DNA of 37,677 nucleotides from Hyphomonadaceae bacterium. GTDB taxonomy: Bacteria; Pseudomonadota; Alphaproteobacteria; Caulobacterales; Aquidulcibacteraceae. The position numbers and the translations under genes were made by a program. The stretch covers positions 1 through 37,677 of the forward strand of contig JACMMP010000021.1 of NCBI GenBank assembly GCA_014378995.1, read 5' to 3'. The notes under the pieces were generated by a model. The model had not been told where the DNA came from, did no database searches, and worked only from the letters and a program-made list of their open reading frames with translations. Below, piece after piece: positions 3,763 to 37,151 of this stretch (its first letter is position 1; each line of letters starts with the position of its first letter).

Positions 3763-3765
3763 GCG

Positions 3766-4689: not shown

Positions 4690-4884
4690 AACGCGCTCGG
4701 TGCGCGGCGGCGTTCGTCCTGCATTGGAGAACCTCTGTTGCAGCGCAGCTCGCCAGGGCGCAAAAACGCGCCGGACGCGATCTTTTCCCAGAGTTATGTG
4801 ACGAAAATTACCGTCACGCGCGTGAATCTCCCATCGCGGGAGCGCCGGCGCCGGCGTTCGTCTAAATGACGAGCAAAATGCCTG
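4690..4884. other. Intergenic region with three inverted repeats
   Basis: No gene is seen here. The gap holds an inverted repeat GTGACG-8 nt-CGTCAC at 4798-4817, a hairpin CTCCC-5 nt-GGGAG at 4828-4842, and a perfect 14-bp palindrome CGCCGGCGCCGGCG at 4843-4856. None is followed by a T-run, so these are not clear intrinsic terminators. They could fold in the 3' end of the alcohol dehydrogenase transcript or act on expression of the isomerase-like gene; both are guesses. Confidence 0.4.
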
Positions 4885-6015: not shown

Positions 6016-6105
6016 GGGTCGCTCCGTCGCGCGTTTGTCCCATAGCCGGAACAGGACCGCTACCGGGAATGGACATCTGAATCGCCGCCGCTAGTCTCCG
6101 CGCCC

Positions 6106-9932: not shown

Positions 9933-10382
9933 CTAGTTGCGCAGCAGATCCTTCAGCCGCTCGCGCAGCTTAGGGGCCGCTTCGTCCAACAGATCCTTCG
10001 GAGTCGTCGCGCAGATGCGCGATTGGGTGCTTGTCGGCAGCAAATTGCGCAGCAGACCCAGCGCCCGCGGGGGCGCGGCGATCACCAAATGTTCGAACTG
10101 ATTGCGCTTGTCAGCTTCGCCGATCCGATCGGCGACACGTTTTAGGAATTTCTCTTCCTCGGCTTCGTGCAAGTTCCGGCCGTTGCCGACCGTGTGCGAG
10201 CCATGACCGAACCGGTTTGAGTCGCGCGGGCGTCCGTCTTGCGGCTCGTAAAGTTCATCCTCGCTGATTTCCATGGTCAGATCGGCTCGCTCTTCCAGCG
10301 TGGCGCCCCGGCTTTGCTCAACCAGCACGCGGGCGCGGCGCCCATCTGCAACGAGCATCCAGGCAGTTCCGTTTTCCAGCAT
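9933..10382 (-). CDS. Host attachment family protein
   Basis: A 149-residue cytoplasmic protein that resembles the family named 'required for attachment to host cells' (AtsE-like). Seen directly: an N-terminal strand TAWMLVADGRRARVLV, a charged middle with ELYEPQDGRPRDSNRFGHG, a helix EEEKFLKRVADRIGEA, then HLVIAAPPRALGLLRNLL and a C-terminal helix. This layout is typical of the family and is also reminiscent of the eRF1 domain 1/archaeal release-factor-like fold. The family name comes from a plant-associated bacterium; its biochemistry is unknown and an attachment role should not be assumed. The ATG at 10382 is chosen because GAGGAG lies just upstream; a longer reading through the ilvA region is a shadow. 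Its stop is 6 bp from the convergent peptidase stop. Confidence 0.85.
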   Translation of the reverse strand: MLENGTAWMLVADGRRARVLVEQSRGATLEERADLTMEISEDELYEPQDGRPRDSNRFGHGSHTVGNGRNLHEAEEEKFLKRVADRIGEADKRNQFEHLVIAAPPRALGLLRNLLPTSTQSRICATTPKDLLDEAAPKLRERLKDLLRN

Positions 10383-10432
10383 GTGGAGTCTCCTCGCCAG
10401 CCAACGCTGAAGCGGGAGCGCCGTTCCCAGGC

Positions 10433-11659
10433 CTAGAGGCAGCGCGCCTCGTAGCCCGCGTCGGTCAGCGCCGCGACGATCTCGCCGGTATGCTGCGCGT
10501 CGCGGGTCTCGATCTCGATGTCGAACTCGACGCCCTTGATCGGCGCGGCCAGCGTCATGCGATGATGCTCGACCTGCAAGATGTTGCCGCCGTGATCGCC
10601 GATAATGCGGCTGACGGTCGCCAGGATGCCCGGCCGGTCGTCGCCAATGAAGCGCAGCACGGCGATGCGCCCCTCGCGCACCAGTGAGCGTTCGAGCACC
10701 GAGGCAAGCAGGCGCGTATCGATGTTGCCGCCGGAAAGAATGATGCCGACTTTTTGGCCTTGGAATTTTTCGGGCGCAGCAAGCAGCGCCGCAAGCGTCG
10801 CCGCGCCGGCGCCTTCCGCGATAGTCTTTTCCGCTGTCACGTAAAGCGCAATCGCTTGCTCGAACATGGGTTCGCCGATCAACACAATCTCGTCGATCAG
10901 CGGCCGTGCGATCTCGAACGGCAGCTCGCCGACCGCTTTCACCGCGATCCCCTCGGCGATGGTCTGGCCGCTGGCTTTGCATTGTTCGCCGTTGGAACGG
11001 GAGGCGAAGGAGGGATACATCTCCGCCTCCACCCCGACGATGCGGATGCCCGGCTTCACCGCCTTAGCCGCCACCGCCATGCCGGCGATCAGCCCGCCGC
11101 CGCCGATCGGGATCACCAGAACGTCGAGGTCGGGCGCGTCTTCGAGCATTTCCAGCGCCGCGGTGCCTTGGCCCGCGATCACCCAGGCGTCGTCGAACGG
11201 GTGAACGAGCACGAGGTTCTGTGCGTCGCGCAGCTTTATCGCGTGGGCGTAAGCGTCGTCGAACGTATCGCCTTCGATCACGATCGCCGCGCCGCGCGCG
11301 CGGGTCTGCTCGACCTTCACGTTCGGCGTGCCGCGCGGCATGACGATGGTCGCCGGGATGCCCAGCGCCCGCGCATGCTGCGCGAGCGCCTGCGCATGGT
11401 TGCCGGCCGAAGCGCAGATGACGCCGCGCTTCTTTTCGCTCTCGTTCAGCTGCAGCAGGCGGTTGAGCGCGCCGCGCTCCTTGAAGGCGCCGGTGAGCTG
11501 CTGATTTTCATATTTCACCCACACATCGAGCCCGGTCGCTTTCGACAAGGCGCGCGAGTGGCGCATCGGCGTCCGCTCGATCCGGCCCGCCAGACGCGCG
11601 GCGGCGTCGCGGATAGCGTCAATCGTGACGGGGGGCGAGGAAGGGCGGCTGTCCGGCAT
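10433..11659 (-). CDS. ilvA: Threonine ammonia-lyase with C-terminal ACT domain
   Basis: A 408-residue PLP enzyme of the threonine/serine dehydratase family, converting threonine to 2-oxobutanoate and ammonia, the entry to isoleucine synthesis or threonine breakdown. The PLP lysine is Lys60 in GAFKERGA; the substrate loop SAGNHAQ lies at 84-90, and the phosphate-binding glycine loop is IPIGGGGLIAG. Residues ~330-408 form one ACT-like regulatory domain (IAVLRFIGDDRPGILATVS). The length and single ACT domain match the medium form of threonine ammonia-lyase rather than the long two-domain biosynthetic IlvA. Whether it is biosynthetic or catabolic here is open. It is separated by 50 bp from the host-attachment-family gene downstream, on the same strand, and may share a transcript. 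Confidence 0.92.
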   Translation of the reverse strand: MPDSRPSSPPVTIDAIRDAAARLAGRIERTPMRHSRALSKATGLDVWVKYENQQLTGAFKERGALNRLLQLNESEKKRGVICASAGNHAQALAQHARALGIPATIVMPRGTPNVKVEQTRARGAAIVIEGDTFDDAYAHAIKLRDAQNLVLVHPFDDAWVIAGQGTAALEMLEDAPDLDVLVIPIGGGGLIAGMAVAAKAVKPGIRIVGVEAEMYPSFASRSNGEQCKASGQTIAEGIAVKAVGELPFEIARPLIDEIVLIGEPMFEQAIALYVTAEKTIAEGAGAATLAALLAAPEKFQGQKVGIILSGGNIDTRLLASVLERSLVREGRIAVLRFIGDDRPGILATVSRIIGDHGGNILQVEHHRMTLAAPIKGVEFDIEIETRDAQHTGEIVAALTDAGYEARCL

Positions 11660-14123: not shown

Positions 14124-14795
14124 ATGGCCGCGCCCGTTCTTCATATCGGCAACAAGAATTATAGCTCCTGGTCGATGCGCCCTTGGCTGGCGCTCAAATG
14201 GGGCGGCGTTCCGTTCGAAGAACACATCATCCCGCTCGGCGGGGAGGGATACGGGCGCTCCGAGATCAAAGAAGTGCGCGCGGTTTCGCCGAGCGGGCGG
14301 GTGCCGGCGCTGCATGTCGGCGACGCGGTGATCCACGAGAGCATCGCCATCTGTGAATGGGCGGCGGAGAAAACGCCCTCGCTTTGGCCGGCCGATCCGA
14401 TTGTCCGCGCCCAGGCGCGCGCGGTGGCGGCGGAAATGCACGCGGGCTTTTTCGCGATCCGCCGGGATATGTCCTGCAACGTGCGCCGGCGTCTGGACCG
14501 TGAGCCGGATTGGCCCGCAGATACGCGGACGGATCTCGAGCGTCTGTTCGAGCTCTGGGGCGGACTGCGCGCGCGTTTCGGCGGCGACGGGCAATTTTTA
14601 TTTGGCCCGCGTTCCATTGCGGACGCGATGTTCGCGCCGGTGGCGACCCGGCTGCGGACTTACGCCGCCAAAACGCCGCAAGTCGCGCAGAGCTATTGCG
14701 CCGCAATCTTCGCTGACGCGGCGTTCCAGGACTGGGAGCGGGCTGCAGAAGCTGAGCCTTGGACGATTGAACAAACGGAAGCGCTTTACAGATGA
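14124..14795 (+). CDS. Glutathione S-transferase family protein
   Basis: A 223-residue cytoplasmic protein with the GST layout: an N-terminal thioredoxin-like domain (~1-80) and a helical C-terminal domain. The start of the fold reads HIGNKNYSSWSMRPWLALK, with Ser14/Ser15 at the usual catalytic position. GRVPALHVGDAVIHESIAIC contains the cis-Pro turn and the glutathione-contacting ES pair. Conjugation or isomerisation of an electrophile with glutathione is the family role; the substrate is unknown. The stop overlaps the FKBP lipoprotein gene by 4 bp (ATGA), so the two are probably translated together, though no shared function is obvious. Confidence 0.9.
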   Translation: MAAPVLHIGNKNYSSWSMRPWLALKWGGVPFEEHIIPLGGEGYGRSEIKEVRAVSPSGRVPALHVGDAVIHESIAICEWAAEKTPSLWPADPIVRAQARAVAAEMHAGFFAIRRDMSCNVRRRLDREPDWPADTRTDLERLFELWGGLRARFGGDGQFLFGPRSIADAMFAPVATRLRTYAAKTPQVAQSYCAAIFADAAFQDWERAAEAEPWTIEQTEALYR

Positions 14796-15322
14796 GAAGA
14801 ATGATCCTTGTTGTCGCCGTCCTTGCCGCCGCGGCCTGCAACAATGAAGGGGGCGGCGTCATGCGCGAGATCGAGCGCGCCGAACAGGAGCATGCGGAAA
14901 CCGTGGCGCGCGCATTGGATGAAATCGGCCGCGAAGTCGAAGAAGCGCCGCGGACTTTCCCGTCCGGCCTCGAACTTCAGTTTCGCCGCCGTGGGCATGA
15001 TCAATCGCTGGCGCTGCCGACGCTGAACGCGACGGTGCTGGTGCACTACGAGGGCAGTCTCGTCGATGGCGGCGAGGTGTTCGATTCTTCGTTCGCGCGC
15101 GGCGAGCCGGCGGAATTTCCGCTGCAAGCCGTGGTGCCTGGCTTCTCCGAAGCGATTGCGCAGATGCGCCCCGGCGATGAAGTGATCGCGACGTTTCCGG
15201 GTTCACTCGGCTACGGCCCCGAAGGCCGCGCGCCAATCCCGCCGAACGCTGCGCTCCGCTTCCGCATCGTGCTGCTGGCCTTCCAGGAGCCGGGCGGCGA
15301 GACGGTGGGCGATCCGGGTTGA
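14792..15322 (+). CDS. FKBP-type peptidyl-prolyl isomerase, lipoprotein
   Basis: A 176-residue envelope protein. The N-terminus is a short lipoprotein signal (MRRMILVVAVLAAAAC) with Cys16 as the predicted lipidated residue. A charged helix (~25-50) is followed by the FKBP domain (~60-168): TVLVHYEGSLVDGGEVFDSS, then VVPGFSEAIAQMRPGDEV, GYGPEGRAPIPPNAALRF. These are the conserved active-site segments, so prolyl cis-trans isomerase activity in the periplasm, aiding protein folding, is expected. The gene begins inside the GST stop and ends 4 bp before the argE GTG, so the three rightward genes form a tight run. Confidence 0.92.
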   Translation: MRRMILVVAVLAAAACNNEGGGVMREIERAEQEHAETVARALDEIGREVEEAPRTFPSGLELQFRRRGHDQSLALPTLNATVLVHYEGSLVDGGEVFDSSFARGEPAEFPLQAVVPGFSEAIAQMRPGDEVIATFPGSLGYGPEGRAPIPPNAALRFRIVLLAFQEPGGETVGDPG

Positions 15323-15326
15323 CCGC

Positions 15327-16475
15327 GTGAGCGATGTCGCGCCGACGCTCGATATTCTCGCGCGCCTGATCGCGTTCGACACCACGTCCCGCAATTCCAA
15401 TCTCGCGCTGATCGAGTGGGTGGAAGACTTTCTGCACATGCGCGGCGTTGCTTCGCGCCGCGTGATGAACGCCGATGGGACGAAAGCCAATCTCTACGCC
15501 GCGGTCGGCCCCGATGTTGCGGGCGGCGTGGTGCTGTCCGGGCATACCGATGTCGTGCCTGTCGATGGGCAGCCGTGGACGAGCGATCCGTGGGTGCTGA
15601 CCGAGCGCGGCGGCAAGCTTTATGGCCGCGGCACGGCGGACATGAAGAGCTTTGCCGCACTCGCGCTTGCGCATGTCGATCAGATGCTGGCGGCGCCGTT
15701 GCAGCGGCCGGTGATCCTGGCGTTTTCGTATGACGAGGAGATCGGCTGCCTCGGCGCGCCGTCGATGATAGCTGAACTCGCGGCGCTGGCGCACAAGCCC
15801 GCCGCGGTCATCGTCGGTGAGCCGACGATGATGAAGGTGGTCTCCGCGCATAAGGGCGTGCGTTCATTCCTGGTGGAAGTAACAGGGCGCGAGGCGCATT
15901 CCAGTTTGCCGGATGCTGGCGTCTCAGCCGTGATGGAAGCGGTGAAGCTGATGAATCTCGTTGCCGAGATCGGGCGCGAGGCGCGCACGGCGAGCCACGC
16001 GCATTTTTCCCCGCCCGGGCCGACGCTGACGATCGGCCGCGTCGAGGGCGGCACGGCGGCCAACATTCTGGCGCGCCGCTGCGAGTTCGTTTGGGATTTG
16101 CGCTGCCCCGAAGCGGCGGAGGGCGATGCGATCGAAGCGCGCTTCCGCGAAGTCGCGGAAAAGCTCGACGCCGAGATCAGGTCGCGGGCGCCGGAAGGCG
16201 GCGTGAAGGTGACGCGGCGTTCGATGACGCCGGGCTTGTCTATCGTGCGGGAGAGTGAGGCGGAGGTGTTGGCGCGGACGCTGACGGGCGACAACGATAC
16301 GCGCGCCGTTGCGTACGCGGCGGAGGCGGGGCTGTTTCAGCGCGCTGGTTTGCCGGCGGTGATCTGCGGGCCCGGCTCGATCGAACAAGCGCACCAGCCG
16401 GACGAATGGATCGAAGTTTCGCAGATTGAAGAGGGCGCCGCGTTTATGCGCCGCCTAGTGAGGCATCTGAGCTAG
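15327..16475 (+). CDS. argE: Acetylornithine deacetylase
   Basis: A 382-residue M20-family metalloamidase, most like ArgE, which removes the acetyl group from N-acetylornithine in arginine synthesis. Metal-site residues are His73 (SGHTDVVP), Asp105 (GRGTADMKSF) and the Glu137-Glu138 pair (YDEEIGC); a GEPTMMKVVSAHKG segment and a dimerisation domain in the middle follow family pattern. The start is GTG at 15327, 4 bp after the FKBP stop. Related M20 deacylases with other substrates cannot be fully excluded, but the overall motif set is typical for ArgE. Its 3' end overlaps the convergent cysQ gene by 32 bp. Confidence 0.92.
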   Translation: MSDVAPTLDILARLIAFDTTSRNSNLALIEWVEDFLHMRGVASRRVMNADGTKANLYAAVGPDVAGGVVLSGHTDVVPVDGQPWTSDPWVLTERGGKLYGRGTADMKSFAALALAHVDQMLAAPLQRPVILAFSYDEEIGCLGAPSMIAELAALAHKPAAVIVGEPTMMKVVSAHKGVRSFLVEVTGREAHSSLPDAGVSAVMEAVKLMNLVAEIGREARTASHAHFSPPGPTLTIGRVEGGTAANILARRCEFVWDLRCPEAAEGDAIEARFREVAEKLDAEIRSRAPEGGVKVTRRSMTPGLSIVRESEAEVLARTLTGDNDTRAVAYAAEAGLFQRAGLPAVICGPGSIEQAHQPDEWIEVSQIEEGAAFMRRLVRHLS

Positions 16476-20311: not shown

Positions 20312-23300
20312 TTATTCCGGCGCTGGGGCGTCCGGGTCAACCAGTTCCTCTTCGTCAACGTTCCCCTGCTGGTTGATGAGCGATCCGGGGTCGGTGATGG
20401 TGGCGGCTGTTTGCGCCAGGCGCCGGAAGGGGGCGGTGACGCGCACGTTGAAATTGAACGGCACGCCGCGAACGGTGACGCTGCCTAGCCCCGGAACTGG
20501 GGCGATAGGGCCGAGATCGACCGGCGTGCCGGTGTTGCGGCCGCTGAACTCGATGGAAGAGACCACATCGCCGTTCAGATCGCCGTCTAGCGTCAGCGAG
20601 AGCGAATCGTAGCGGAAGCTGCGGAGCGCATCGAAGGCGATGCGGGAGACGCCGGTGGCGCTCTCGCCCGCGGCGCCGGTGTAGGAGATGGTGCCGCCTT
20701 CGCCTTGCGCGCGCACGACGCCGCCTTCGATAAAAGCGCTGCGACGCGTGAGAAGGAGCGGGAAGGCGCCTTCTAGCCGCCCCGTAGCTTCCAGGTCCGG
20801 GACGTTAAGTGTCGCGAGCAAGCTTGACGCGTCGACGTCGCTCAGCCTCAACTCGAAGCGTGTCTCTTCCGATCCCAGCGTGATCGTGGTGGGCTGCATC
20901 GACAAGACGCCGGACGCAAAATCGAACTCGGCTTGCTCGATGGCGACGCGCTGCTCGTTTTGCAGTTGGAAGCGGATGCGCCCATTGGTGACGGCGACGC
21001 CTGGATTGAGCAGGCCGACGCTAAGCTGCTGGCCCGGCGGCGTTGTCAGCGCGAACAGATCGTCAAAGAGAATTTCGCCGTTGACGTTCTCGATGATTGG
21101 AATGGTGGAGGTGGCGAGCGAGACGTTGTTCAGCCGCACGCGGCCGGCGCTGGTGATCGCATCGCGCGTCCAGAGAATGTCGCCAACAATATCCGCGCTG
21201 CCGGTGACGCCCTCGACCAAGCCGCGCGTGCGTTCGGTAATGTCGTAGGGCTGCAGGTCCGGGCCGAAGGTGAGGCCGCTTGCCGTGATGCTCGCGCTGC
21301 CGGCGCCGTCGCTCATGACATGGCGCGCTACAAAGAGCGCCAGCTGGCGCCCTTGCTCGGCGAGCAGCACGCCGCCAGTTGCATCGACTACGTTGTCGCG
21401 CAGGGTGGCGTCGATTTCGACCAGCTGCAGCGGATTAAACAGCGGACGCTCGTCGTCGCTGGCGGGCCGGTTCGCCGTGAGCAAAGCCGCGCCGGCGATG
21501 ACGCGGATAACCGGTTTTCCGTCCTCGGGCGCGGCCGACCAGCCGCCGGCGATGGTGGAGACGGAACCCGGCAACGTCGGATCGGTCAGCCCGCCTTGTA
21601 CGAAGTCGCCCACGACGCGCCAGCTCTCGCCGATATAGGCGTTTGCCGTGATCCGCTGCAGGACGACGTCGAGTCTGCGATCTTCGGCCATGTCGATGCT
21701 GATCATTGGCCTGTCGGCGGCGACGGCGAGTGTGATGTCGCCGGTGCGTCCGCTAAAGCGGCCGACTACATTGGCGGCGGCAACGCGCGCTGGCTGCCGC
21801 TCGGGGCCGGCCATGCTGCCATTGAGGGCAAGGCGCTGAATTGCAAAACCGCCGGAAAGGTTCTCGGCGGCGTCCGCCGCGATCAGCGCGCCGTCCAGCG
21901 GGCACAGCGCGAGATTTCCGTCGGCGAACGAGAGCCCGGCGACGTCCAGCCCGCCCATGCGCACGGGCACGCAGGCGCCATTCGTCATCACCCGCCAGCC
22001 GTCGCCCCAACTTATGGCGAGATCCAGCGTCGGGACGAGATCGCGCACTTCGCCGTCGCCGAGCGGGCCTGTGATCCGCGCCGGCCCGCGCAGATCGACG
22101 CGGCCGCCGCCTTGCGCCGCAGTGATGGTCACACCGAGTTCGTTTGCCGCGATGCTTGCGCCATCCGCGCGCCAATCGGCTAGCGTCAGCGTGCCGTCGG
22201 CCTCGAACGGCGCCTCCGCCGATGAGGTGACCGTGTCCAACAGCAAGGATGCGCCTGGCGCGCCGCCGCCCGAAAGCTCAACGGCGACTGCGCCGGTGAG
22301 CCGCGGTCCCGGCCATTGCAGCACCAGCGCCGGCGTATCGCGGCGCAGAGGCGAAAGGCGCAGACGCGCGCCCGTTGCAGCGCGCGCCTCAGCCGGCGCG
22401 ACCACGCTGAGGCGCAGACCGCCTTCGGCCTCGTTGAGCACGATGGGCGCAGAGAGCGTGAAATTGTCGGCGGCGGCGTCAAGCGCCGCGCGGGCGTATG
22501 CGAATGTGGGGCCGACGGGCGTGCCGTTGAGCGCCGGGAAAGCGCCGCGCAGATTGGCCTGCGCATCGCCGTCCAGCGCGCTGCGGGCGAATGTCGCCAG
22601 CGCGTCACCGCTGAATTCTCCATCCTCGGATACAAAGAGGCGCCCCGACGCGGCGGGCTGGCGTGAGATGAGGCCGAACCCATCGAAACGCTCGCCGCCC
22701 AAGGTCCAGCGGGCGCGCAATTGTGCGCCGGCGCCTTCGCCGTTCGCCGTAAAGCGCGGGCGCTGCACGCGCACATCTTGCAGAGCGAGCGCAGCAGCAT
22801 CGGCCTCGGCGCGCACGCGCCAGGTTTCGAACGCCAGCGCGTCCTCACGCGTCGCGGCTTCGCCGGTGACGCCGCCGCTCAGCAGGCGCGCGTCAACGGT
22901 GGGCGTGTCCAGCGCAGCGACGCGCATAGCGGCTTCGATAGTGAAGCGGCCAAGGTCGAGCGGCGTGTGCCCAAGCACGAGGATACGCGCGCTGTCGGCG
23001 CGTGCGTCGGCCCAAAGCAGCTGCGCAGCTTCGGCGGACACGCGGAAGGCAATGCTGTCGTCGTGCGAAACTACCGAAAGTTCGGCTTTGCCGCGATCGA
23101 GCGCGTACTCTGCGCCGGGCCGCGTCGTTTCGGCGATGCGGCCGACGGCGGTGAAGTTTTCGCCGATGAGGCCGCTGGCCCGGAAGTCGCCTGTCAGTTG
23201 GCCAAACGGCGCATCAACCAGGAGTTCGCCGCCGATAATTTCGAGATTGAAGCGCGGTATGGTTGGTCGGCGACGGCCGGGGGCGCCGCCGCTGATACCG

Positions 23301-23734
23301 CTGAGGGCGCCGGCAGACACGCGCCCACCCTGGTCGAGCCGCAGCCGAAGCATGGGTTCGGTGAGACGCACCGCCGCCAGTTCGGGGCTGAGCCCGCGCC
23401 AGCGCCAGCGCGCTTCCACTGTTTCGATCGCAGCGTCGGGAGACTCTTCAGCTCCAAAGCGCAAGTTCCGTAGCGTCACCCCGTCCAGGTCGAGGCTCTC
23501 GACCTGAAAGTCCGCCTCGGCCCCGCGTTCGGACAAAGCGGCCCCGATCATGAACTCAGCAAGGGGCAGGCGTGCGAGCCATACCCCCAGCGCCACCAGA
23601 AAGGTGGACACGCCCAATGCGGCAAGAGCCGTCGCCCAACCGATAAGCATCCGGCGGGGTGTTGGCGGTTCTACAGGCGCCGAAGGTGGCGACTGGTCTT
23701 GACTTGCAACGGCCTGGTTAGACCTATGTGCCAT
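20312..23734 (-). CDS. ydbH: YdbH-family AsmA-like intermembrane lipid transport protein
   Basis: A 1140-residue envelope protein. A short cytoplasmic N-terminus is followed by one membrane helix (~29-53, GWATALAALGVSTFLVALGVWLA). The rest is periplasmic, beta-rich and repetitive, with no catalytic motifs, as in AsmA/TamB-type proteins that form a hydrophobic groove. In E. coli, YdbH acts alongside TamB and YhdP in moving phospholipids to the outer membrane and works with YnbE. The C-terminal third has IEFSGRNTGTPVDLGPIAPV and FNVRVTAPFRRLA, then an acidic tail. E. coli YdbH is shorter (under 900 residues), so this is a long member. Assignment rests on architecture and on the adjacent ynbE/ydbL genes. 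A long open frame on the opposite strand is a composition artefact. Confidence 0.88.
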   Translation of the reverse strand: MAHRSNQAVASQDQSPPSAPVEPPTPRRMLIGWATALAALGVSTFLVALGVWLARLPLAEFMIGAALSERGAEADFQVESLDLDGVTLRNLRFGAEESPDAAIETVEARWRWRGLSPELAAVRLTEPMLRLRLDQGGRVSAGALSGISGGAPGRRRPTIPRFNLEIIGGELLVDAPFGQLTGDFRASGLIGENFTAVGRIAETTRPGAEYALDRGKAELSVVSHDDSIAFRVSAEAAQLLWADARADSARILVLGHTPLDLGRFTIEAAMRVAALDTPTVDARLLSGGVTGEAATREDALAFETWRVRAEADAAALALQDVRVQRPRFTANGEGAGAQLRARWTLGGERFDGFGLISRQPAASGRLFVSEDGEFSGDALATFARSALDGDAQANLRGAFPALNGTPVGPTFAYARAALDAAADNFTLSAPIVLNEAEGGLRLSVVAPAEARAATGARLRLSPLRRDTPALVLQWPGPRLTGAVAVELSGGGAPGASLLLDTVTSSAEAPFEADGTLTLADWRADGASIAANELGVTITAAQGGGRVDLRGPARITGPLGDGEVRDLVPTLDLAISWGDGWRVMTNGACVPVRMGGLDVAGLSFADGNLALCPLDGALIAADAAENLSGGFAIQRLALNGSMAGPERQPARVAAANVVGRFSGRTGDITLAVAADRPMISIDMAEDRRLDVVLQRITANAYIGESWRVVGDFVQGGLTDPTLPGSVSTIAGGWSAAPEDGKPVIRVIAGAALLTANRPASDDERPLFNPLQLVEIDATLRDNVVDATGGVLLAEQGRQLALFVARHVMSDGAGSASITASGLTFGPDLQPYDITERTRGLVEGVTGSADIVGDILWTRDAITSAGRVRLNNVSLATSTIPIIENVNGEILFDDLFALTTPPGQQLSVGLLNPGVAVTNGRIRFQLQNEQRVAIEQAEFDFASGVLSMQPTTITLGSEETRFELRLSDVDASSLLATLNVPDLEATGRLEGAFPLLLTRRSAFIEGGVVRAQGEGGTISYTGAAGESATGVSRIAFDALRSFRYDSLSLTLDGDLNGDVVSSIEFSGRNTGTPVDLGPIAPVPGLGSVTVRGVPFNFNVRVTAPFRRLAQTAATITDPGSLINQQGNVDEEELVDPDAPAPE

Positions 23735-29332: not shown

Positions 29333-30088
29333 TCAGCAGGCGTCTTCGGTGTTGAGCACGGCGGGGAGCGTCATCAACAAAATCCAGAACTCGCCGAGCC
29401 ATGACCATTCTTCGAGGTATTCACGGTCGTAGCGGATGCGCCGTTCATAGCCGGTGCTCGAACGTCCGCTCACTTGCCAGAGCCCGGTAATGCCGGGGCG
29501 CACAAGCAGATAATAACGGCGGTCACGGCCGTAGCGGTTGAGTTCAGCGCGCGTGATCGGGCGCGGGCCGATGACACTCATATCGCCGCGCAGCACGTTC
29601 CAGAGTTGCGGCAATTCATCCAGGCTCGTCTTGCGCAGAAAGGCGCCGACCTTGGTGATGCGCGGATCGTGGCGCAGCTTCTGGCCTTCCTGCCATTCTG
29701 CAGCGGCATGAGGATCGGTGAGCAGGATCTGCGCCAGCCGCTCTTCGCTATCCGTCGCCATGGTGCGGAATTTTAGGCACTCGAAACGCTCGCCTTGGCG
29801 CCCGACGCGCGTGTGGCGATAGAACACCGGCCCGCGGTCGGTCAGCTTAATGGCGAACGCGATACTGATGAAGGCCGGGAGCAGGAAGAGGAGGGCCAGT
29901 CCCGCAATTGCGAGATCGAAGGCGCGCTTCATGCGCCCATTGGCGGCTCTAACCTTGCGGATAAGACGACGATCGGTGATCCGATGCGCGACGCGCGATT
30001 CGGCTGCTCTAAAGCGTTCGCCCGCATTCTGCCGGCCACGAAACGGGAGACTTACAGTCGCCCCCGTTTCGATCATTTGATTGGCCAT
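29333..30088 (-). CDS. Polyprenyl-phosphate sugar-1-phosphate transferase (exopolysaccharide)
   Basis: A 251-residue bacterial sugar transferase of the monotopic phosphoglycosyl transferase type (WcaJ/HfsE C-terminal domain, PglC). It starts polysaccharide synthesis by moving a sugar-1-phosphate from a nucleotide sugar to undecaprenyl phosphate on the inner membrane. After ~50 basic residues it has the re-entrant helix ([20 protein letters not shown]), then [23 protein letters not shown], the catalytic pair Asp157-Glu158 in [15 protein letters not shown] with Arg176, and [14 protein letters not shown]. All key motifs are intact. It lacks the extra N-terminal helices of full-length WcaJ-like enzymes. 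It diverges from the beta-barrel side of the polysaccharide region. Confidence 0.94.
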
Positions 30089-30621: not shown

Positions 30622-31995
30622 ATGACGTCTTTGCAAAACACCGCGGGCGAGCCTGCGCAAACATTCCCGCCGCAAGCGCAAGCTGTTGCCTTTACGATGA
30701 ATTCCGCTGAACGCTCGGTCCAAAGTCGCCGAACCCGCTTGGCCAGCCAAGCGGCGTTGGCTCGTGCAGGGGGATTTGTTTTGCGCTTCCATCGCGTTTT
30801 TTCCGTATTCACCGCTTCGCTGATCGCGTTTGCGCCGCTCCACGCCGTCGCGCAGACGCCGGAGGAAAAGGTTTCGGTCCGCGAGCGTCCGCGCCCTGAG
30901 TTCGATCCGCTCGGCACCCGCCTCGGCGCATTCAACTTGAACGCTGAACTCGATCTTGGCGTCGCCAGCACCGATAACCTCTTCGCCGACGTCCCGGGCG
31001 CCGAGGTCGACGATATGATCTACACGGTGAGCCCGTGGGCGCGTCTGTCGTCGGGCTGGTCGCGCCATGCGCTTTCGGTCGAAGGCGGCGCGACATTCAA
31101 GAGCCACCAAGATTTCTCGAGCGAAGATGCCGACACGCACTTCGTGCGCGGCGTCGGCCGGCTTGATATCGGCAGCTCCACCAGCATCACCGGCACGGCC
31201 GGCTTTGCGCATGAAGTTGAGCCCCGGACGGATCCGGACGCGTCGCTGCTCGGCGACCCAGTCGAATACGACCGCACCGAAATGTCTGTCGGCGTTGCTC
31301 ACACCTTCAACCGCTTCCGCGTCGTCGCTGAAGCGGCGCACGCCGAGACCGATTTTGACGGTTTGGTCCCGAGCCTGCGCGACAACGAAGAGGACGTGTT
31401 GCGCGGCCGCATCGAAGCGGAGCTCACGCCGCGTATCGGCGCGGTCCTCCAGGCCACGGCAGATGAGCGCTCCTACGACAACGACCCGACCCTCAATTCG
31501 GAAGGTCAAACCTTGCTGGCCGGCGTCACGATCAACTTCACCGATCTCATGCTGGGTGAGTTCACCGTCGGTCAGTTCGAGCGCGACTACCAAGGTTTTG
31601 GCTCGACCGACGGCCTTGCGATTGCAGCCGAGGTCGAATGGTACATCACGCGCTTGACGACCATCACGCTCAACGTCGACCGCAACGCCGAGGATGTCGT
31701 CGGGGCCGCGACCGGACTGCCTTACGTTGAGGAACGCTACGGCGCGCGCGTTGATCACGAATTGCTGCGCAATGTCATCCTCACAGCGGCGGTCCAGGCC
31801 GGCCAACGTGAATACGATGTGGTCGATCGCAATGACGACTTCTTCTACGGCGAGATCGGCGCGGACTATCTGATGAACCGCCGTGTCGCGCTGCAAGCGC
31901 GTTACCGCCGCGACGAGGTGGAATCGTCGGGTGCGGCTGCTTATCGCGACTATGAGGTCAATACGCTGTCGGTCGGGCTCAGCCTGCGCCTCTAG
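30622..31995 (+). CDS. Outer-membrane beta-barrel protein (BBP2-like)
   Basis: Up to 457 residues. The ATG at 30622 follows GGGGAG but leaves a signal peptide (FHRVFSVFTASLIAFAPLHAVAQ) more than 50 residues in; a TTG at 30781, directly after AGGGGGA, would put that signal at the N-terminus and may be the true start. The mature part is a series of amphipathic strands with aromatic and charged residues (e.g. SVGVAHTFNRFRVVAEAAHA) and ends SVGLSLRL, as expected for a barrel with a C-terminal insertion strand. Proteins of this type occur in exopolysaccharide loci, where they may serve export or surface binding of polymer. No Wza-type export channel is seen in the window. Confidence 0.87.
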   Translation: MTSLQNTAGEPAQTFPPQAQAVAFTMNSAERSVQSRRTRLASQAALARAGGFVLRFHRVFSVFTASLIAFAPLHAVAQTPEEKVSVRERPRPEFDPLGTRLGAFNLNAELDLGVASTDNLFADVPGAEVDDMIYTVSPWARLSSGWSRHALSVEGGATFKSHQDFSSEDADTHFVRGVGRLDIGSSTSITGTAGFAHEVEPRTDPDASLLGDPVEYDRTEMSVGVAHTFNRFRVVAEAAHAETDFDGLVPSLRDNEEDVLRGRIEAELTPRIGAVLQATADERSYDNDPTLNSEGQTLLAGVTINFTDLMLGEFTVGQFERDYQGFGSTDGLAIAAEVEWYITRLTTITLNVDRNAEDVVGAATGLPYVEERYGARVDHELLRNVILTAAVQAGQREYDVVDRNDDFFYGEIGADYLMNRRVALQARYRRDEVESSGAAAYRDYEVNTLSVGLSLRL

Positions 31996-32034: not shown

Positions 32035-32490
32035 ATGAGCCTGGAAACGTCAATGCCCGCGGCTGCAAAGCCCAAAGCTAAACCTCCCGCCAGGGGGGCA
32101 TCAAAAAAAGGCGCCGCGCGGAAACGTGCGGCGCCTGCCGCTTCGCTGGCTGGCGCTCTCGCGGAAGCTGCGTGGGCGGAAGCCGATCTCGCTTTGGCGG
32201 AGGCGCTCGCCTACCTTGACGAAGCGCAAGGCGCTGGCGACCAGGCAGCGTACGCGGATGTGCTGGAGCTGGTGGCGCAATCGCTCTCAAGGGCGGCGCG
32301 CAAGCGTGGGCTGGCCCGGCTCGGTAAGCTTGGCGCGCGCGAGGCGTACGACGCCAATCTGCATGATCTCAATGGCGCGGGGTCCCGGCCGCCCAAAACT
32401 GTCCGGGTCGAGGCGCGCGGCGTCGCCCGCGGCGGCGACGTGTTGGTGAAAACCCGGGTAGGGCGCCTCGGCGCACCCAAGCGGCCATGA
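32035..32490 (+). CDS. Mini GrpE-like protein (putative nucleotide exchange factor)
   Basis: A 151-residue protein: a Lys/Ala/Pro-rich N-terminus (~1-35), a helical middle (~38-95, ALAEAAWAEADLALAEALAY), and a C-terminal part that follows GrpE order: LARLGKLGAREAYDANLHDL matches the GrpE pattern GxxxIxxxGxxFDPxxHE, and VRVEARGVARGGDVLVKTRVGRL matches its closing beta-domain (V...GY...RVLRxAxV). The long GrpE coiled-coil is much shortened. Its stop overlaps the Hsp70-like gene by 4 bp, so the two are translationally coupled, as expected for an ATPase and its exchange factor. An ATG at 32053 with GGAA upstream is an alternative start. Similarity is modest; the role is inferred from pattern and neighbour. 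Confidence 0.7.
   Translation: MSLETSMPAAAKPKAKPPARGASKKGAARKRAAPAASLAGALAEAAWAEADLALAEALAYLDEAQGAGDQAAYADVLELVAQSLSRAARKRGLARLGKLGAREAYDANLHDLNGAGSRPPKTVRVEARGVARGGDVLVKTRVGRLGAPKRP
32103..32135 (-). terminator. Terminator-like hairpin on the reverse strand inside the GrpE-like gene
   Basis: GGCGCCGC (32110-32117) and GCGGCGCC (32128-32135) form a perfect 8-bp stem, extended by a G-T pair and two GC pairs to 11 bp around a GAAA tetraloop. Seven A residues (32103-32109) precede it, so leftward RNA would have a strong GC stem followed by seven U. It would stop leftward antisense transcripts from the 34-kb kinase-like gene. As forward coding sequence the same bases encode the basic N-terminus. 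Confidence 0.45.
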
Positions 32491-33872
32491 CCGACTGGAC
32501 GCTCTGTATCGATTTCGGCACCGCCTATTCCAAGGCCGCGGCGGCGCCGGCAGACGCCTGGTCGCGGTTTGAGCCCAGCATGGTGCGCCCGCTTATGCTC
32601 AGCGGCCATCACCACCACGGCAATCCGTTTTTGCTCGATAGCGCGGTATTCGTCGACGAGGGCCGCGTGCTGTTTGGGCGCGCGGCCATCGCCCGCGCTG
32701 ACGCGCTGGGCGATAAAAAGCGCATGGCGCTGAAATCGTTCAAGACGCTGCTGAGCGTCAGCGATCTCGACCGGGCGCTCAACACCAACGCGCCGCTTTC
32801 GATCGATCCCCACCGCATCTTCCAGATGCGCGACCTGATCGTGCTTTACCTCGCTTTTCTGCTTGAGGCCGTCGAGCAGGCCTGCGCGGCCGACACTCTG
32901 GTGGCCGGGGCGACGCGGATGAGCCGCCGCTATGCCGCCCCCGCCTGGCGCAGCGGCGACAGCGCCGGGATGCACCAGGTGATCGTGCAACTGTTCGGCG
33001 AAGCGGAAGCGTTTCGCGCCTTGGTGGGCAAAAAGCTGATGTCGCCGGACGGGCTGCCGCTTAGCACCATTAGTTCGGCGTTGCCGAAAGCCTTGGCGAA
33101 TGCGCGCGCGATGGACATCGGCCTCATCTTCGAGGCGACGGCGGCGGCCGCCTACACGTCAGTCGGACTGGAAGACGCCGGTTCGCACTTGATCGTCGTC
33201 GATATGGGCGCAGGCACTACCGACATCGCCGCCCTGGCCCGGGTCGGCGCGCGGACGATCGAACTGCCGGAAGCGCGCGTAACGATGAAACAGGCCGGCG
33301 ATTTCATCGACCGCATCATCGCCAATCTCGTGATCGAGAACGCCTCGTGGGCGCGCAGCAAGGACGATCAGAGCGAACTCTGGAACGTGCTGATGCGCCA
33401 GATGCGCGACATCAAAGAGAGCGTGTTCGCGGATGGGCGCGCAACGCTTCGCCATCGCGGCAAGAACATTACCCTTTCGATGCGCGACATCGAACGCGAT
33501 GCTGACTTCAAGGCGTTCTACAAAAATTTAAGCGAGGCGTTCGCGCATGGGCTCATGGTCGTGCGCGGGGATGCTGTCTTGCGCGGGCAAACCGAGGTGC
33601 AGGCGATCGCCGTCGGCGGCGGCGCGGCGGCGCCGTTCATCCAGGGTTTGCTGAAGAAGAAGACGACGCGCGCCACCCCGCGCGTGGTGGCGCGGCCGGC
33701 GACGCCTGACTGGGCGCATGCGCGCGAGTTTCAGGGCAATTTAGCGCCAGTCTTTCCGCAACTCGCGATTTCTATCGGCGGCGCGCTTGCGCCGGACGAC
33801 ATGCTGGCGGCGCGCGGCGGAGTCAGTCCGGTCGCAGCCGTCCGAACCGATATTGAGGCGGCACCCGATTGA
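32487..33872 (+). CDS. Hsp70-family ATPase domain protein without substrate-binding domain
   Basis: A 461-residue member of the Hsp70/actin ATPase superfamily. Seen: phosphate-1 loop IDFGTAYSKAA (8-18), Hsp70-like EATAAAAY (216-223), phosphate-2 loop VVDMGAGTTD (237-246), QAGDFIDRIIANL (269-281, like the GGxDFD segment) and adenosine loop IAVGGGAAAPFIQG (374-387). DnaK is about 630 residues; here the chain ends about 75 residues after the adenosine loop, with no beta-sandwich substrate domain. So client binding must differ from DnaK. The start overlaps the GrpE-like gene by 4 bp. The last 50 bp overlap the convergent kinase-like gene. In this setting it may act on polysaccharide assembly proteins; that is inference. 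Confidence 0.88.
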   Translation: MTDWTLCIDFGTAYSKAAAAPADAWSRFEPSMVRPLMLSGHHHHGNPFLLDSAVFVDEGRVLFGRAAIARADALGDKKRMALKSFKTLLSVSDLDRALNTNAPLSIDPHRIFQMRDLIVLYLAFLLEAVEQACAADTLVAGATRMSRRYAAPAWRSGDSAGMHQVIVQLFGEAEAFRALVGKKLMSPDGLPLSTISSALPKALANARAMDIGLIFEATAAAAYTSVGLEDAGSHLIVVDMGAGTTDIAALARVGARTIELPEARVTMKQAGDFIDRIIANLVIENASWARSKDDQSELWNVLMRQMRDIKESVFADGRATLRHRGKNITLSMRDIERDADFKAFYKNLSEAFAHGLMVVRGDAVLRGQTEVQAIAVGGGAAAPFIQGLLKKKTTRATPRVVARPATPDWAHAREFQGNLAPVFPQLAISIGGALAPDDMLAARGGVSPVAAVRTDIEAAPD

Positions 33873-34863
33873 CCCAGACGCCGGTGGCGAGATGGGGCCG
33901 CCGCTGCAGCGACCGCATGACGCTGCGCACCGCGCCCAGCTTGGTGCGGTCCCAGCCGGCCACAAGTATGGCGCGCTCCGCCATGCCGGCGAGGACGACG
34001 CCGTCGGCGGAAGCCAGCGCCGGGGGGCAATCGAGCACCACCAGATCGTAAGCGTCGCCCAAGGCGTCGATCAGCGCAGGAAAGCCGCGCGATCCGGCCA
34101 GCGTTTTCCACGGATTGCGCATGCGCGCCGCCGGCAGGAAGTGCAGCCCGGTCTCTTCTTCCTCTGCGATGAGGTTGCGCCAGCTCTCCGGCTCGTTGCT
34201 GGCTTCGAGGACGCCTGCGTCGGCCTCGTGCTCCAGCGCCCGCGTCAGTCCGCGGCGGCGCAGATCGCAGTCGACGATGATCACGCTGCGGCCTTGCTGG
34301 GCGGCGCTCACCGCTGCGCACAGCGCCGACATCGTCGCGCCTTCCTCGGGCAAGGCGGCGATGAACGAAACCACGCGCTGATCGGCGAGCGCGCCCTGAA
34401 GATCGCGGAACGCGGTCGCGAATGGCGCGGCCGGCTGAAACGCAAGGCAGCCGACCGGGGTCCTCTTGTCGGGCGGCAATTGGCGCAGCGCATGAGGCGT
34501 CAGCTCTGGCGCCGCGCCAAACACCATGTAGCCGCGGTGTTTCCCAAAGCTGGTTATGGAGGTGATGGTGTTGCGCCCGATCTCGCGCACCAAAGCGGCG
34601 ATCAGCGCCAAGGCGACCGCCAGCGGCGCCCAGAATTGTGCTGCAACCAGCGGGCGAACTCCGCCAGAATAATCAAAGCCAATGCCGCCCGCTGCGACGG
34701 CAAGTGTAATGAGGATGACAATCAGCCATTGGCGGCGCACGCCGCGAGCCACCCGCGCCAGCGCCAGCGACTGAGCCGGCCGCCGGCCGCTGCTCTGGGC
34801 GCCTGCCGCTCCAGGCGACCGGGCATCGTCCCGCGTCAGGTCACTTGTAAGTGGTGACGTCAC
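33823..34863 (-). CDS. CpsD/BY-kinase-like membrane protein with altered Walker A
   Basis: A 346-residue protein of the polysaccharide co-polymerase/tyrosine kinase type (CpsD, HfsB-like). Two membrane helices (~46-66 and ~77-93) precede a P-loop domain. Walker A' (VIIVDCDLRRRG, Asp198 and Asp200) and Walker B (LVVLDCPPAL, Asp278) are intact, but the Walker A region reads ALPEEGATMSA: Ala176 (GCG) stands where GKT has its lysine. The C-terminus (VPPQYRFGRLRPD) has only one tyrosine instead of a tyrosine cluster. ATP hydrolysis and autokinase activity are therefore doubtful; it may regulate chain assembly by binding. The extracellular Wzz-type region is absent. It diverges from the 35155 gene, and its end overlaps the Hsp70-like gene by 50 bp. 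Confidence 0.9.
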   Translation of the reverse strand: MTSPLTSDLTRDDARSPGAAGAQSSGRRPAQSLALARVARGVRRQWLIVILITLAVAAGGIGFDYSGGVRPLVAAQFWAPLAVALALIAALVREIGRNTITSITSFGKHRGYMVFGAAPELTPHALRQLPPDKRTPVGCLAFQPAAPFATAFRDLQGALADQRVVSFIAALPEEGATMSALCAAVSAAQQGRSVIIVDCDLRRRGLTRALEHEADAGVLEASNEPESWRNLIAEEEETGLHFLPAARMRNPWKTLAGSRGFPALIDALGDAYDLVVLDCPPALASADGVVLAGMAERAILVAGWDRTKLGAVRSVMRSLQRRPHLATGVWVNRVPPQYRFGRLRPD

Positions 34864-35154: not shown

Positions 35155-35949
35155 ATGCTCATCCAGATGCCTCGCGGGTCGCCCGACCAGCAGGTTTCGC
35201 AGAACGCGGAAACAAGCAACGCCTTCGAAGCAGCGCTTCGGCGCGACTTAGCGAGCGCGCCTCTCGTTTCCTACGACGCAATGCTCGGCGGCTGGCCTAA
35301 GCGCGTCGTCGATCTCACGCTCACGCTGCTCGCGTCGCCTATATGGCTCGTGCTGATGCTCTCCACCGCGCTCGTATCGAAGCTGCGGCATCCGGCGCCG
35401 GTCTTCCTGGCGCAGGAACGCGTCGGTTATGGCGGCCGTATCTTCAAAAGCTTCAAGCTGCGCATTGCGCTGCCGTCAGCAAAGATCGAACGTCTGCACC
35501 TTGCCGGGGCGCCTGAAGAACCGCCTGCGAATGATTTGACCGCCATCGCCGGCAATGCGGAGGGGCCGCAGGCGAAGTGGCGCCGCGCGCTTGAGCGTCT
35601 GCCGCAATTGTTCAACGTGATCGCCGGCGACATGGCGCTGGTCGGTCCGACGCCGCTGTCGGGCGACCAACTCGAGCCGTTGAAGACCGCCAAGCGCTAT
35701 TATCTGAGCGCCCGTCCGGGCGTCGTCAGCGTCAGCCCCATCGCGGATGCGGATGAAGAAGAGGCGAGTCAGTACAAAGTCTACGCGCTCTCTTGGTCGC
35801 TGATGACCGATGCGTTGCTGCTTTGGGACGCGCTGCGTTCGCTGCGCGACCGCGGCGAACTCTGGAGGCCGAGCTTCAAAATCGCCCGCGCACGCGCAAA
35901 AGCGGCGAGCGAGCGTCCCGTCGTCGTCCGTCGCCGCAGCGGAACGTGA
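35155..35949 (+). CDS. Degenerate phosphoglycosyl transferase-like protein
   Basis: A 264-residue relative of bacterial sugar transferases. It keeps the overall order: basic PKRVVDLTLTLLASPIWLVLML re-entrant helix (~48-70), PVFLAQERVGYGGRIFKSFK (82-101), LPQLFNVIAGDMALVGPTP (149-167) and YYLSARPGV. Key residues are changed: the catalytic Asp-Glu pair of SLDELPQL is Glu147-Arg148, GPRP is GPTP (Thr166), the KFRTM motif reads KLRIA, and the TGLWQVSGR block is missing. Normal transferase activity is unlikely. It may be a regulatory or scaffold pseudoenzyme for polysaccharide initiation, working with the intact paralogue at 29333-30088. It leads the rightward transcript with two glycosyltransferases. 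Confidence 0.88.
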   Translation: MLIQMPRGSPDQQVSQNAETSNAFEAALRRDLASAPLVSYDAMLGGWPKRVVDLTLTLLASPIWLVLMLSTALVSKLRHPAPVFLAQERVGYGGRIFKSFKLRIALPSAKIERLHLAGAPEEPPANDLTAIAGNAEGPQAKWRRALERLPQLFNVIAGDMALVGPTPLSGDQLEPLKTAKRYYLSARPGVVSVSPIADADEEEASQYKVYALSWSLMTDALLLWDALRSLRDRGELWRPSFKIARARAKAASERPVVVRRRSGT

Positions 35950-36023: not shown

Positions 36024-37151
36024 TTGGCTGAACTAATCTTCTTCGGGCACGACGCCCACGACCCGGCCGTGCAACGCCGGATCAAGGCGTTCGAGCAGAC
36101 CGGCGTTTCCGTCCGTGCGTTCACCATGCGCCGCGGGCCTGCGTTCAACGCCCCTTGGATCAACATCGATCTCGGGGAAACTCGCGACGCCGACTTCACC
36201 CAGCGCATCGGCGCTCTGATTCAGGCCCAGCCGGTGCTGCGCGCTCGGCGCGATGCGCTGAAGCGGGCCGAACTCTACTACGCCCGCAATCTGGACATGC
36301 TGGCGCTCGCGCACTGGGCCCGGCGCATGAGCGGCTCAACGGCCAAGCTGATTTACGAATGCCTCGACGTTCACCGCTTCATGACGCGCACCGATGCGCT
36401 TGGCGCGACAATGCGCGGCGTCGAACGACATTTGTTGGCCGATGTCGAACTGGTCGTCGTGAGCTCGCCCGCCTTCGTGCAAGAATATTTTGACGCCCGC
36501 CATCCTGGACGTGTGCGTTCGGTGCTGGTCGAGAACAGATTGCCGCCGGGCTTCCACTATGGGCCGCGCCCGATCGAACCGCCGCCGCGCACTGGCCCGA
36601 TCCGCATCGGCTGGTTCGGCAATCTGCGCTGCCGGCGCAGCTTTGGCCTGCTGCTCGACTTGGCCGAGCGGTTTCCCGATAGGATCGAGCTGTCCTTCCG
36701 CGGCGCCCCGGCGCGCACCGAGATCGATGATTTCGAAGCGCGGATCGCGGACCTGGCCAATGTCTCGTTCGGGGGGCGCTATTCCTGGCCGGAGGGGCTG
36801 GCGCGCATCTACGCGGCCGTCGATCTCGTCTGGGCCGGCGATTTCCACGATCCTGGCGCCAACTCGAAGTGGCTGTTGCCTAACCGGCTCTACGAAGGCG
36901 GCTATTATTGCGCGCCGCCGATCGCGCCAGCGGATAGCGAAACCGGCCGCTGGATTGAAGCGCAGGGCGCAGGCTTCACCCTTGCCGAGCCGCTCGAAGA
37001 AACATTGCCCGCTTTCATCGCCAGCCTAGATCGGGCGCGCATATCAGACGTGCGCGCCCAACTTGCCGCCGCGCCGGAAAGCACATTCGTCCAGCCTAAG
37101 GATGAATTGAAAGATTTGCTCGCTGCGGCGCTGGCGGGGCGCGCGCCGTGA
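36024..37151 (+). CDS. Exopolysaccharide glycosyltransferase (GT-B, ExoL-like)
   Basis: A 375-residue glycosyltransferase likely of the GT-B/GT4 type. The N-terminal half starts ELIFFGHDAHDPAVQRRIKA, recalling ExoL-type enzymes of succinoglycan synthesis, and continues LIYECLDVHRFM and ELVVVSSPAF. The C-terminal half has IRIGWFGNLRCRRSF and the donor-site-like region DLVWAGDFHDPGANSKWLLPNRLYEGGYY. It would add one sugar to the lipid-linked repeat unit at the inner membrane, cytoplasmic side; donor and acceptor are unknown. The start is TTG at 36024, with AGGA about 9 bp upstream. Its stop overlaps the next glycosyltransferase start by 4 bp (GTGA), so they are translationally coupled. Confidence 0.85.
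   Translation: MAELIFFGHDAHDPAVQRRIKAFEQTGVSVRAFTMRRGPAFNAPWINIDLGETRDADFTQRIGALIQAQPVLRARRDALKRAELYYARNLDMLALAHWARRMSGSTAKLIYECLDVHRFMTRTDALGATMRGVERHLLADVELVVVSSPAFVQEYFDARHPGRVRSVLVENRLPPGFHYGPRPIEPPPRTGPIRIGWFGNLRCRRSFGLLLDLAERFPDRIELSFRGAPARTEIDDFEARIADLANVSFGGRYSWPEGLARIYAAVDLVWAGDFHDPGANSKWLLPNRLYEGGYYCAPPIAPADSETGRWIEAQGAGFTLAEPLEETLPAFIASLDRARISDVRAQLAAAPESTFVQPKDELKDLLAAALAGRAP

Follow-up and report, generated by a model that had tools for sequence, protein, structure and literature searches.

An Hsp70-type ATPase without substrate-binding domain, a GrpE-like partner and a stand-alone BY pseudokinase in a polysaccharide locus of a Hyphomonadaceae bacterium

In the chaperone machine composed of DnaK, DnaJ and GrpE, the nucleotide-binding domain (NBD) of the Hsp70 protein hydrolyses ATP and GrpE speeds the release of ADP. 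Some Hsp70 systems are connected with polysaccharides: as stated in the available parts of the sources, StkA and SglK are Hsp70 systems that exert control over polysaccharide in Myxococcus (PMC4319316), and a DnaK1-DnaJ3-GrpE system, using DnaJ3 and a single GrpE, does so in Nostoc (PMC9239167). Other Hsp70 genes belong to the GAP1-N2 conflict loci, in which, according to the accessible sections of Kaur et al. (2020, PMC7159879), a second Hsp70 gene 'sans its peptide-binding domain' is placed beside Hsp70 and GrpE. Polysaccharide pathways also contain BY (tyrosine) pseudokinases, such as EcpK of Myxococcus and HfsB of Caulobacter, which the available text of PMC12004946 presents as proposed scaffolds of PCP-2 proteins. 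The present study is centred on three genes of a 37,677-nucleotide stretch of DNA from a Hyphomonadaceae bacterium (contig JACMMP010000021.1, assembly GCA_014378995.1), the whole of which is called the window: the gene of an Hsp70-type ATPase without substrate-binding domain (SBD), that of a GrpE-like small protein (SP) and that of a stand-alone BY pseudokinase (Table 1). Among the publications listed by literature searches, none on this trio was recognisable by title or abstract. The trio looks like a conserved unit, of which the stand-alone pseudokinase is the new element, the pair formed by the other two proteins being catalogued but unexplained.

Table 1. Coordinates of the trio and of its neighbours in the window (aa, amino acids; ORF, open reading frame)
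Feature	Position	Strand	Basis
Phosphoglycosyl transferase (WbaP-like), divergent from the barrel gene	29333-30088	-	Pfam, NCBIfam
BBP2_2 outer-membrane beta-barrel, directly upstream of SP	30622-31995	+	Pfam, E 2.7e-76
GrpE-like small protein SP, 145 aa (start 32053) or 151 aa (ORF opens 32035)	32035/32053-32490	+	
ATGA stop/start overlap joining the SP and ATPase genes	32487-32490	+	
Hsp70-type NBD, 461 aa, without SBD	32487-33872	+	ORF, profile, fold
Stand-alone BY pseudokinase with two transmembrane-like segments; Walker A'- and B-like motifs present, Lys of Walker A substituted	33823-34863	-	
Phosphoglycosyl transferase (Bac_transf)	35155-35949	+	Pfam, NCBIfam
Conserved polysaccharide-locus protein, glycosyltransferase-like by eye only	36024-37151	+	no Pfam/NCBIfam match
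Second conserved locus protein, start only, cut by the contig end	37148-37675	+	

The product of the ATPase gene is an Hsp70 NBD by its fold and its retained catalytic residues. When a profile made from a 40-sequence alignment of the family was compared with PDB sequences, Hsp70 structures were obtained, Hsc70 among them at E 7.7e-19, and the template-free model (pLDDT 86.7) gave Hsp70 chains in all 50 PDB fold matches listed. Residues D9, K86, E216, D239, T244 and D246 are unchanged in the 40 aligned sequences and, by alignment to the DnaK of the same genome, correspond to D8, K70, E171, D194, T199 and D201 in the usual DnaK numbering. Neither the SBD nor the linker of the Hsp70 chaperones is found in the sequence or in the model; the chain stops after the NBD, its end consisting of 15 low-confidence residues (447-461). 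The single sequence is barely above the Pfam cut-off for HSP70 (PF00012; E 7.5e-5, 21.6 bits, cut-off 20.6) and below that for MreB (E 1.2e-5, 24.8 bits, cut-off 27), its top matches being MreB/MamK models and an actin-like ATPase. A search of the ATPase against plasmids gave no match.

For the SP, relatives favour the downstream start. Single-sequence searches, Pfam and NCBIfam among them, gave no GrpE match for the window protein, which does not reach the gathering score of PF01025; only one of 21 family members touches this model (E 0.2), and the SP profile found no GrpE among the PDB sequences. Because of this, profile-profile and fold comparisons were used. Comparison by hhalign of the 21-sequence SP alignment with 40 GrpE proteins of the phylum gave 87.6% with a score of 42.6, the controls reaching at most 22.7 (SP columns shuffled 150 times), at most 17.7 (GrpE columns shuffled 100 times) and 13.3 (reversed alignment). 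The GrpE rows came from 40 of 50 loci, the other ten being dropped for having no ORF that passed a filter on the FDPxxH-region motif; the GrpE alignment is thus partly motif-selected, which has no bearing on the fold search. In the AlphaFold model, built from the alignment of the family itself with no template (pLDDT 78.8), a disordered tail, basic and rich in K, A and P, is followed by two helices (residues 29-59 and 64-84) and a beta domain (88-138), with seven short strands in all; most sequences of the alignment carry the basic tail. When PDB matches of this model are ranked, the first nine are GrpE chains without exception (E 2.0e-4 to 6.0e-3), and the tenth falls to E 1.4. Modelling therefore predicts a GrpE-type fold for the SP, with a helical part and a beta domain.

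The preliminary description of this DNA had recognised an Hsp70-like ATPase devoid of a substrate domain whose reading frame overlaps that of a shortened GrpE-like protein, and both identities are borne out by these results, as are the coordinates given for the two reading frames and their overlap, which consists of a shared ATGA. It had also reported no J-protein, and the Pfam and NCBIfam scans, which covered part of the window's ORFs, gave no J-domain match. The window pair thus has in common with the DnaK-DnaJ-GrpE machine the Hsp70 NBD fold, the catalytic residues and a GrpE-like partner, but it has no SBD, no linked DnaJ is seen and its GrpE is short and without the long helix. The canonical dnaK and grpE genes of the genome are found on another contig (C71). 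StkA, SglK and the Nostoc DnaK1 are DnaK homologues that the available parts of PMC4319316 and PMC9239167 do not describe as SBD-less, in contrast to the window ATPase. The GAP1-N2 loci, as far as PMC7159879 is accessible, also differ from the window pair, being GTPase-centred, mostly from actinobacteria and firmicutes, and with DnaJ or TPR fusions.

The pair is well conserved in its lineage. The SP gene is immediately 5' of the ATPase gene in all 29 loci examined, of which 28 belong to the genus and one to a sister genus, and in 28 of the 29 the two genes overlap by ATGA or GTGA, which makes a chance reading unlikely. Differences from the two closest relatives fall on third codon positions about 2 to 3.5 times as often as on first or second positions. 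The ATPase family was detected in 32 of 61 genomes, namely all 30 searched of the genus, one of the sister genus and one with a weak match; within the genus, 28 genomes could be read as having the SP-linked form, and the other two are 83% and 57% complete. A whole-genome search for the SP in 13 genomes gave one clear copy in each; two of the 13 have, between them, three further matches that are weak (E 0.014-0.25). A census with PDC-M61B, the PADLOC model that the ATPase matches, found at E 1e-15 a positive in 48 of 398 genomes of the order, and one in 385 genomes of the class and one in 398 of the phylum, both of the latter being the source genome itself. The names obtained from a named collection include uncultured Hyphomonadaceae, Caulobacterales and Alphaproteobacteria.

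The third gene is convergent with the ATPase gene, their 3' ends overlapping by 50 bp. Its product matches BY-kinase models (NCBIfam eps_transp_fam, 1e-19), carries its two transmembrane-like segments as judged by hydrophobicity, gives no match to a Wzz domain in Pfam, lacks the Tyr-rich tail of Wzc and reads EGATM where BY kinases have GKT. Since it combines transmembrane-like segments with no Wzz match and no Walker-A Lys, its sequence identifies it as a membrane-anchored BY pseudokinase standing alone. The 'kinase-like co-polymerase' of the preliminary description is therefore to be revised to a stand-alone BY pseudokinase. EcpK and HfsB resemble it in having a BY-kinase fold without catalytic residues within polysaccharide pathways; on the other hand, no Hsp70/GrpE pair is mentioned for them in the available text of PMC12004946, and the loci of the window type also have a full-length Wzc with an intact kinase P-loop.

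This gene accompanies the pair with great regularity. A BY-kinase-like gene lies near the pair in 27 of the 29 loci, a count whose label ('Wzc') covers stand-alone and full-length copies; counted separately, a stand-alone copy adjoins the pair in 27 of 29, the window-type loci that miss it being L110, at a contig end, and L074. The Walker-A Lys is missing in all 26 intact copies of these 27, that of L069 being broken; the site reads GA in 23 of them, and GAG, GAG and GTT in the others, whereas all 20 full-length Wzc copies of the same 29 loci have EGKTT. It is also missing in three further genomes, G799 and G922 (L111/L257, L115/L258) and G887 (L254). Loci L101-L103, L106, L110, L113, L114, L250, L257 and L258 were identified with G genomes or with other loci through the lengths of their contigs. 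The orientation of the gene varies: it is convergent in the window genus and in G887, whose locus repeats the window layout, lies upstream on the same strand in the sister genus and is divergent in G799 and G922. In these last two (L111/L257, L115/L258) the pseudokinases, divergent from the SP, are 34% and 33% identical to that of the window and read DVGATT and REGASS in the Walker-A region. A BLAST search of 13 window proteins over L257 and L258 revealed no further polysaccharide gene beside the pseudokinase, and the five neighbours scanned there are a PEP carboxykinase, a dehydrogenase, a histidine kinase, a succinate dehydrogenase and a reductase.

Taken over the whole of family f1, which comprises the window pair, a pseudokinase flanks 30 of the 33 pairs found, in three gene arrangements (L110, L074 and L250 miss it), and near two of these 30 no other polysaccharide gene was recognised. 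Beside SP-less ATPase genes, no stand-alone pseudokinase was found in any of 32 cases (22 in the genus and 10 of the 20 loci fetched from the order). Since the pseudokinase is kept in 30 of 33 pairs across rearranged contexts, it is the trio, more than the polysaccharide locus, that seems to be the conserved unit; the retention of partners despite rearrangement is stronger support for a joint function than a conserved gene order would be.

Within the genus, the surroundings of the trio are those of a polysaccharide locus. The outer-membrane barrel that had been placed upstream was confirmed as BBP2_2, and a BBP2 barrel is present within 6.5 kb of the pair in 25 of the 29 loci. In the nearest relative (G008), the 25 kb past the trio contain genes for a sugar oxidoreductase, an ABC-2/Wzt exporter, a glycosyltransferase, a polysaccharide deacetylase, an acyltransferase, a GH16 enzyme and a full-length Wzc; ten proteins were scanned in this stretch, two of them without match. 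The polysaccharide setting claimed by the preliminary description thus holds in the genus, and does not extend to the six SP loci of family f2 or to distant relatives in defence loci. Among 20 loci fetched from the order, ten have an SP, and at six of the ten SP-less ones one or more polysaccharide markers were recognised, in one case a weak one. Farther away in the window, on the minus strand, are a 1140-residue YdbH-like intermembrane phospholipid transport protein (20312-23734; E 1.2e-76), relatives of which occur at some loci of neighbouring genomes, and a protein with a Host_attach / baeRF family 12 domain (9936-10982).

Besides the SP-linked forms, the genus holds SP-less paralogues of the ATPase, 22 of which were fetched out of a larger number. 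Ten of these 22 (L041, L044, L045, L047, L048, L052, L053, L054, L055 and L057) are preceded on their own strand, at a distance of 62-224 nt, by the gene of a histidine kinase, which represents a second kind of partner; eight of the ten are in the tree, all of them within one SP-less clade of 11. Three paralogues were left out of alignment A2 and of the tree, L045 and L054 as presumed near-copies and L046 (G029, 5292-6684) as a broken one; the latter, being split over two overlapping frames, is probably a decayed gene. At L042 (G020), two SP-less paralogues (3739-5109 and 14143-15510) lie on either side of another polysaccharide locus, which encodes Poly_export proteins, a BBP2-like barrel, a full-length Wzc-like protein, Wzy_C and two transglutaminase-like cysteine proteases. 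In the ATPase tree (53 rows) the SP-linked forms are scattered over the family, with long branches and an unsure deep order; because of this scatter, the pairing of SP and ATPase is probably old and the partner has probably been lost in the paralogues.

The relatives of the pair extend beyond f1. The preliminary description suggested that the pair may be an 'undescribed' switch, a word that is too strong: PADLOC catalogues a candidate, PDC-M61A/B, with the same gene order, and SBD-less Hsp70 proteins next to GrpE are reported in the accessible part of PMC7159879. The window ATPase matches PDC-M61B at 1.7e-56 over residues 3-433; of the 21 SPs, 7, not including that of the window, match PDC-M61A (best 3.1e-7). 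PDC-M61A has about 340 extra N-terminal residues and PDC-M61B about 120, whereas the window SP has little beyond its C-terminal GrpE-like domain. The C-terminus of PDC-M61A aligns with the SP by hhalign at 76%, and at 94% once distant SPs are added. Among the loci with scanned neighbours, relatives of the pair are located near HmaB/HmaC (L119), BrxL (L117, L124), a PglZ-domain protein (L117) and a TIR-like protein (L120), and a more distant pair adjoins a DrmD-like helicase (L126). Unlike the window trio, the PDC-M61 hosts scanned are BREX/Hma loci in which no pseudokinase was found; in the window lineage, the neighbours, both in the window and in its relatives, are polysaccharide genes instead of a defence locus. 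In the accessible main text of a BREX survey (PMC12839542), GrpE, Hsp70, DnaK, chaperone and actin-like are all absent. At L117-L120, L122, L124 and L125 the PDC-M61A-like protein encoded upstream of the ATPase ends in an SP-aligning domain.

In a further family, f2, six of nine loci fetched carry an SP with another N-terminus, and these f2-type SPs align with the window type at 96.7%. The GrpE-likeness of PDC-M61A and of the f2-type SPs follows from these matches to the SP and is not direct. At L259-L262, L265, L266 and L250 (f2 and G824), an SP-like C-terminal domain is joined to a different N-terminal region in unrelated chromosomal settings. A winged-helix N-terminus, suspected by eye in the f2-type SPs, found no support in Pfam.

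The whole reading that we favour, to which a probability of about 0.45 is given, is that of a three-part regulatory ATPase of the Hsp70 type, acting through the pseudokinase as an ATP/ADP switch on polysaccharide polymerisation or export. The SBD-less Hsp70 domain would bind and hydrolyse ATP, and the mini-GrpE, co-produced with it through translational coupling, would free ADP and reset the ATPase; on what is known of both families, these ATPase and nucleotide-exchange activities are very probable. As the client domain is absent, the ATP/ADP state of the NBD would itself be the output signal. The likeliest receiver would be the adjacent membrane-anchored pseudokinase, a P-loop scaffold, and it is a natural one because a supporting role towards PCP-2 proteins, exerted through binding, has been proposed for EcpK and HfsB (PMC12004946, available part); genomic association makes a partnership of pseudokinase and pair likely. 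The pseudokinase might then pass the signal to the full-length Wzc, which is the polysaccharide co-polymerase, and in this way act as a gate on polymerisation or on export through the barrel, control of polysaccharide being, on the same kind of association, somewhat more probable as output than otherwise.

Several observations weigh against this reading. The TM-scores of the ATPase against Hsp70 chains are modest (0.48-0.57 by query length), as are those of the SP against GrpE (0.36-0.52, with a root-mean-square deviation of 5.3-7.4 Å), and the long N-terminal coiled-coil helix of GrpE is absent from the SP model, whose helices have 31 and 21 residues. Compared directly with GrpE by hhalign, whole PDC-M61A reaches 0.2% and the f2-type SPs alone 11.8%. 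The contig of G012 (L074) has other genes at the site expected for the pseudokinase. Neither a pseudokinase nor a polysaccharide marker was found at the six f2 SP loci and in G824, so the ATPase/GrpE-like pair can exist without the former, and more distant relatives of the pair sit in defence loci. In G799 and G922 the vicinity of the trio contains no recognisable PCP-2 gene, and for this reason polysaccharide may not be the general output of the trio. Pairs lying mostly away from polysaccharide genes had been named by the preliminary description as evidence against its proposal; this evidence is obtained in part, since such pairs do occur, in f2 and in defence loci, but the basic-tail pairs of f1 keep the pseudokinase also where no further polysaccharide gene was recognised.

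Among the alternatives, the main rival is a phage-defence or surveillance module of the PDC-M61 kind that has settled beside a surface-polysaccharide locus, where the state of the ATPase would trigger a response to infection, perhaps a change of capsule. The PADLOC matches of the window ATPase and of 7 of the 21 SPs, the HmaB/HmaC, BrxL, PglZ-domain and DrmD-like neighbours of relatives and the SBD-less Hsp70 with GrpE in the conflict loci described in the accessible sections of Kaur et al. (PMC7159879) point in this direction. It is nevertheless rather unlikely: the family is stable in its lineage, all 30 genus genomes carrying the ATPase and 28 the SP-linked form, and Pfam and NCBIfam scans of window neighbours revealed no defence gene, PADLOC having been run on the pair only. 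PDC-M61 is a candidate label. That the pair follows a barrel gene in most loci and that most SPs bear a basic tail would also suit a dedicated assembly or holding factor for one envelope protein (the barrel, Wzc or a glycosyltransferase), contacting its client through the NBD or through that tail; the missing SBD and the retention of the pair where no barrel was found (L068, L073, L074, L106, L257, L258) make this quite improbable.

An actin-like filament of the MreB/MamK type, placing the polysaccharide machine at the cell pole with the SP modulating its assembly, would agree with the best single-sequence matches of the ATPase. As the best reading of that protein it was dropped, because the family profile and the fold search give Hsp70; the partner, moreover, is GrpE-like, and GrpE serves Hsp70s, so that a filament is very unlikely. 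Regulation through two-component signalling, with a secondary association to polysaccharide, receives some support from the paralogues that follow histidine kinase genes and from the histidine kinase and response regulator genes of the window itself (25.4-28.2 kb), but it is the least probable of these alternatives: the kinase-linked paralogues present in the tree all fall in a single SP-less clade, and the SP-linked forms keep the pseudokinase instead.

The three-part regulatory ATPase could be one case of a wider class of SBD-less Hsp70 switches, a generalisation that is doubtful at present. In such a class the GrpE-like beta domain would recharge the ATPase and the N-terminal extension would select the output: a basic tail with pseudokinase for polysaccharide export, a long extension for BREX/Hma loci (PDC-M61) and the other N-terminus of f2. 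In the trio, the Hsp70 cycle would then replace tyrosine phosphorylation as the clock for assembly and disassembly of the co-polymerase. The homology of PDC-M61B to the Hsp70-type NBD and the SP-aligning end of PDC-M61A suggest a testable biochemistry for that candidate.

The retention of the trio in several related bacteria suggests a reusable ATP-driven switch and not a protein-folding machine. If this is true, the cycle of Hsp70 ATPase and exchange factor would be separable from protein folding and could serve as a switch in signalling, while the BY pseudokinases that stand alone in polysaccharide loci would gain a nucleotide-driven controller.

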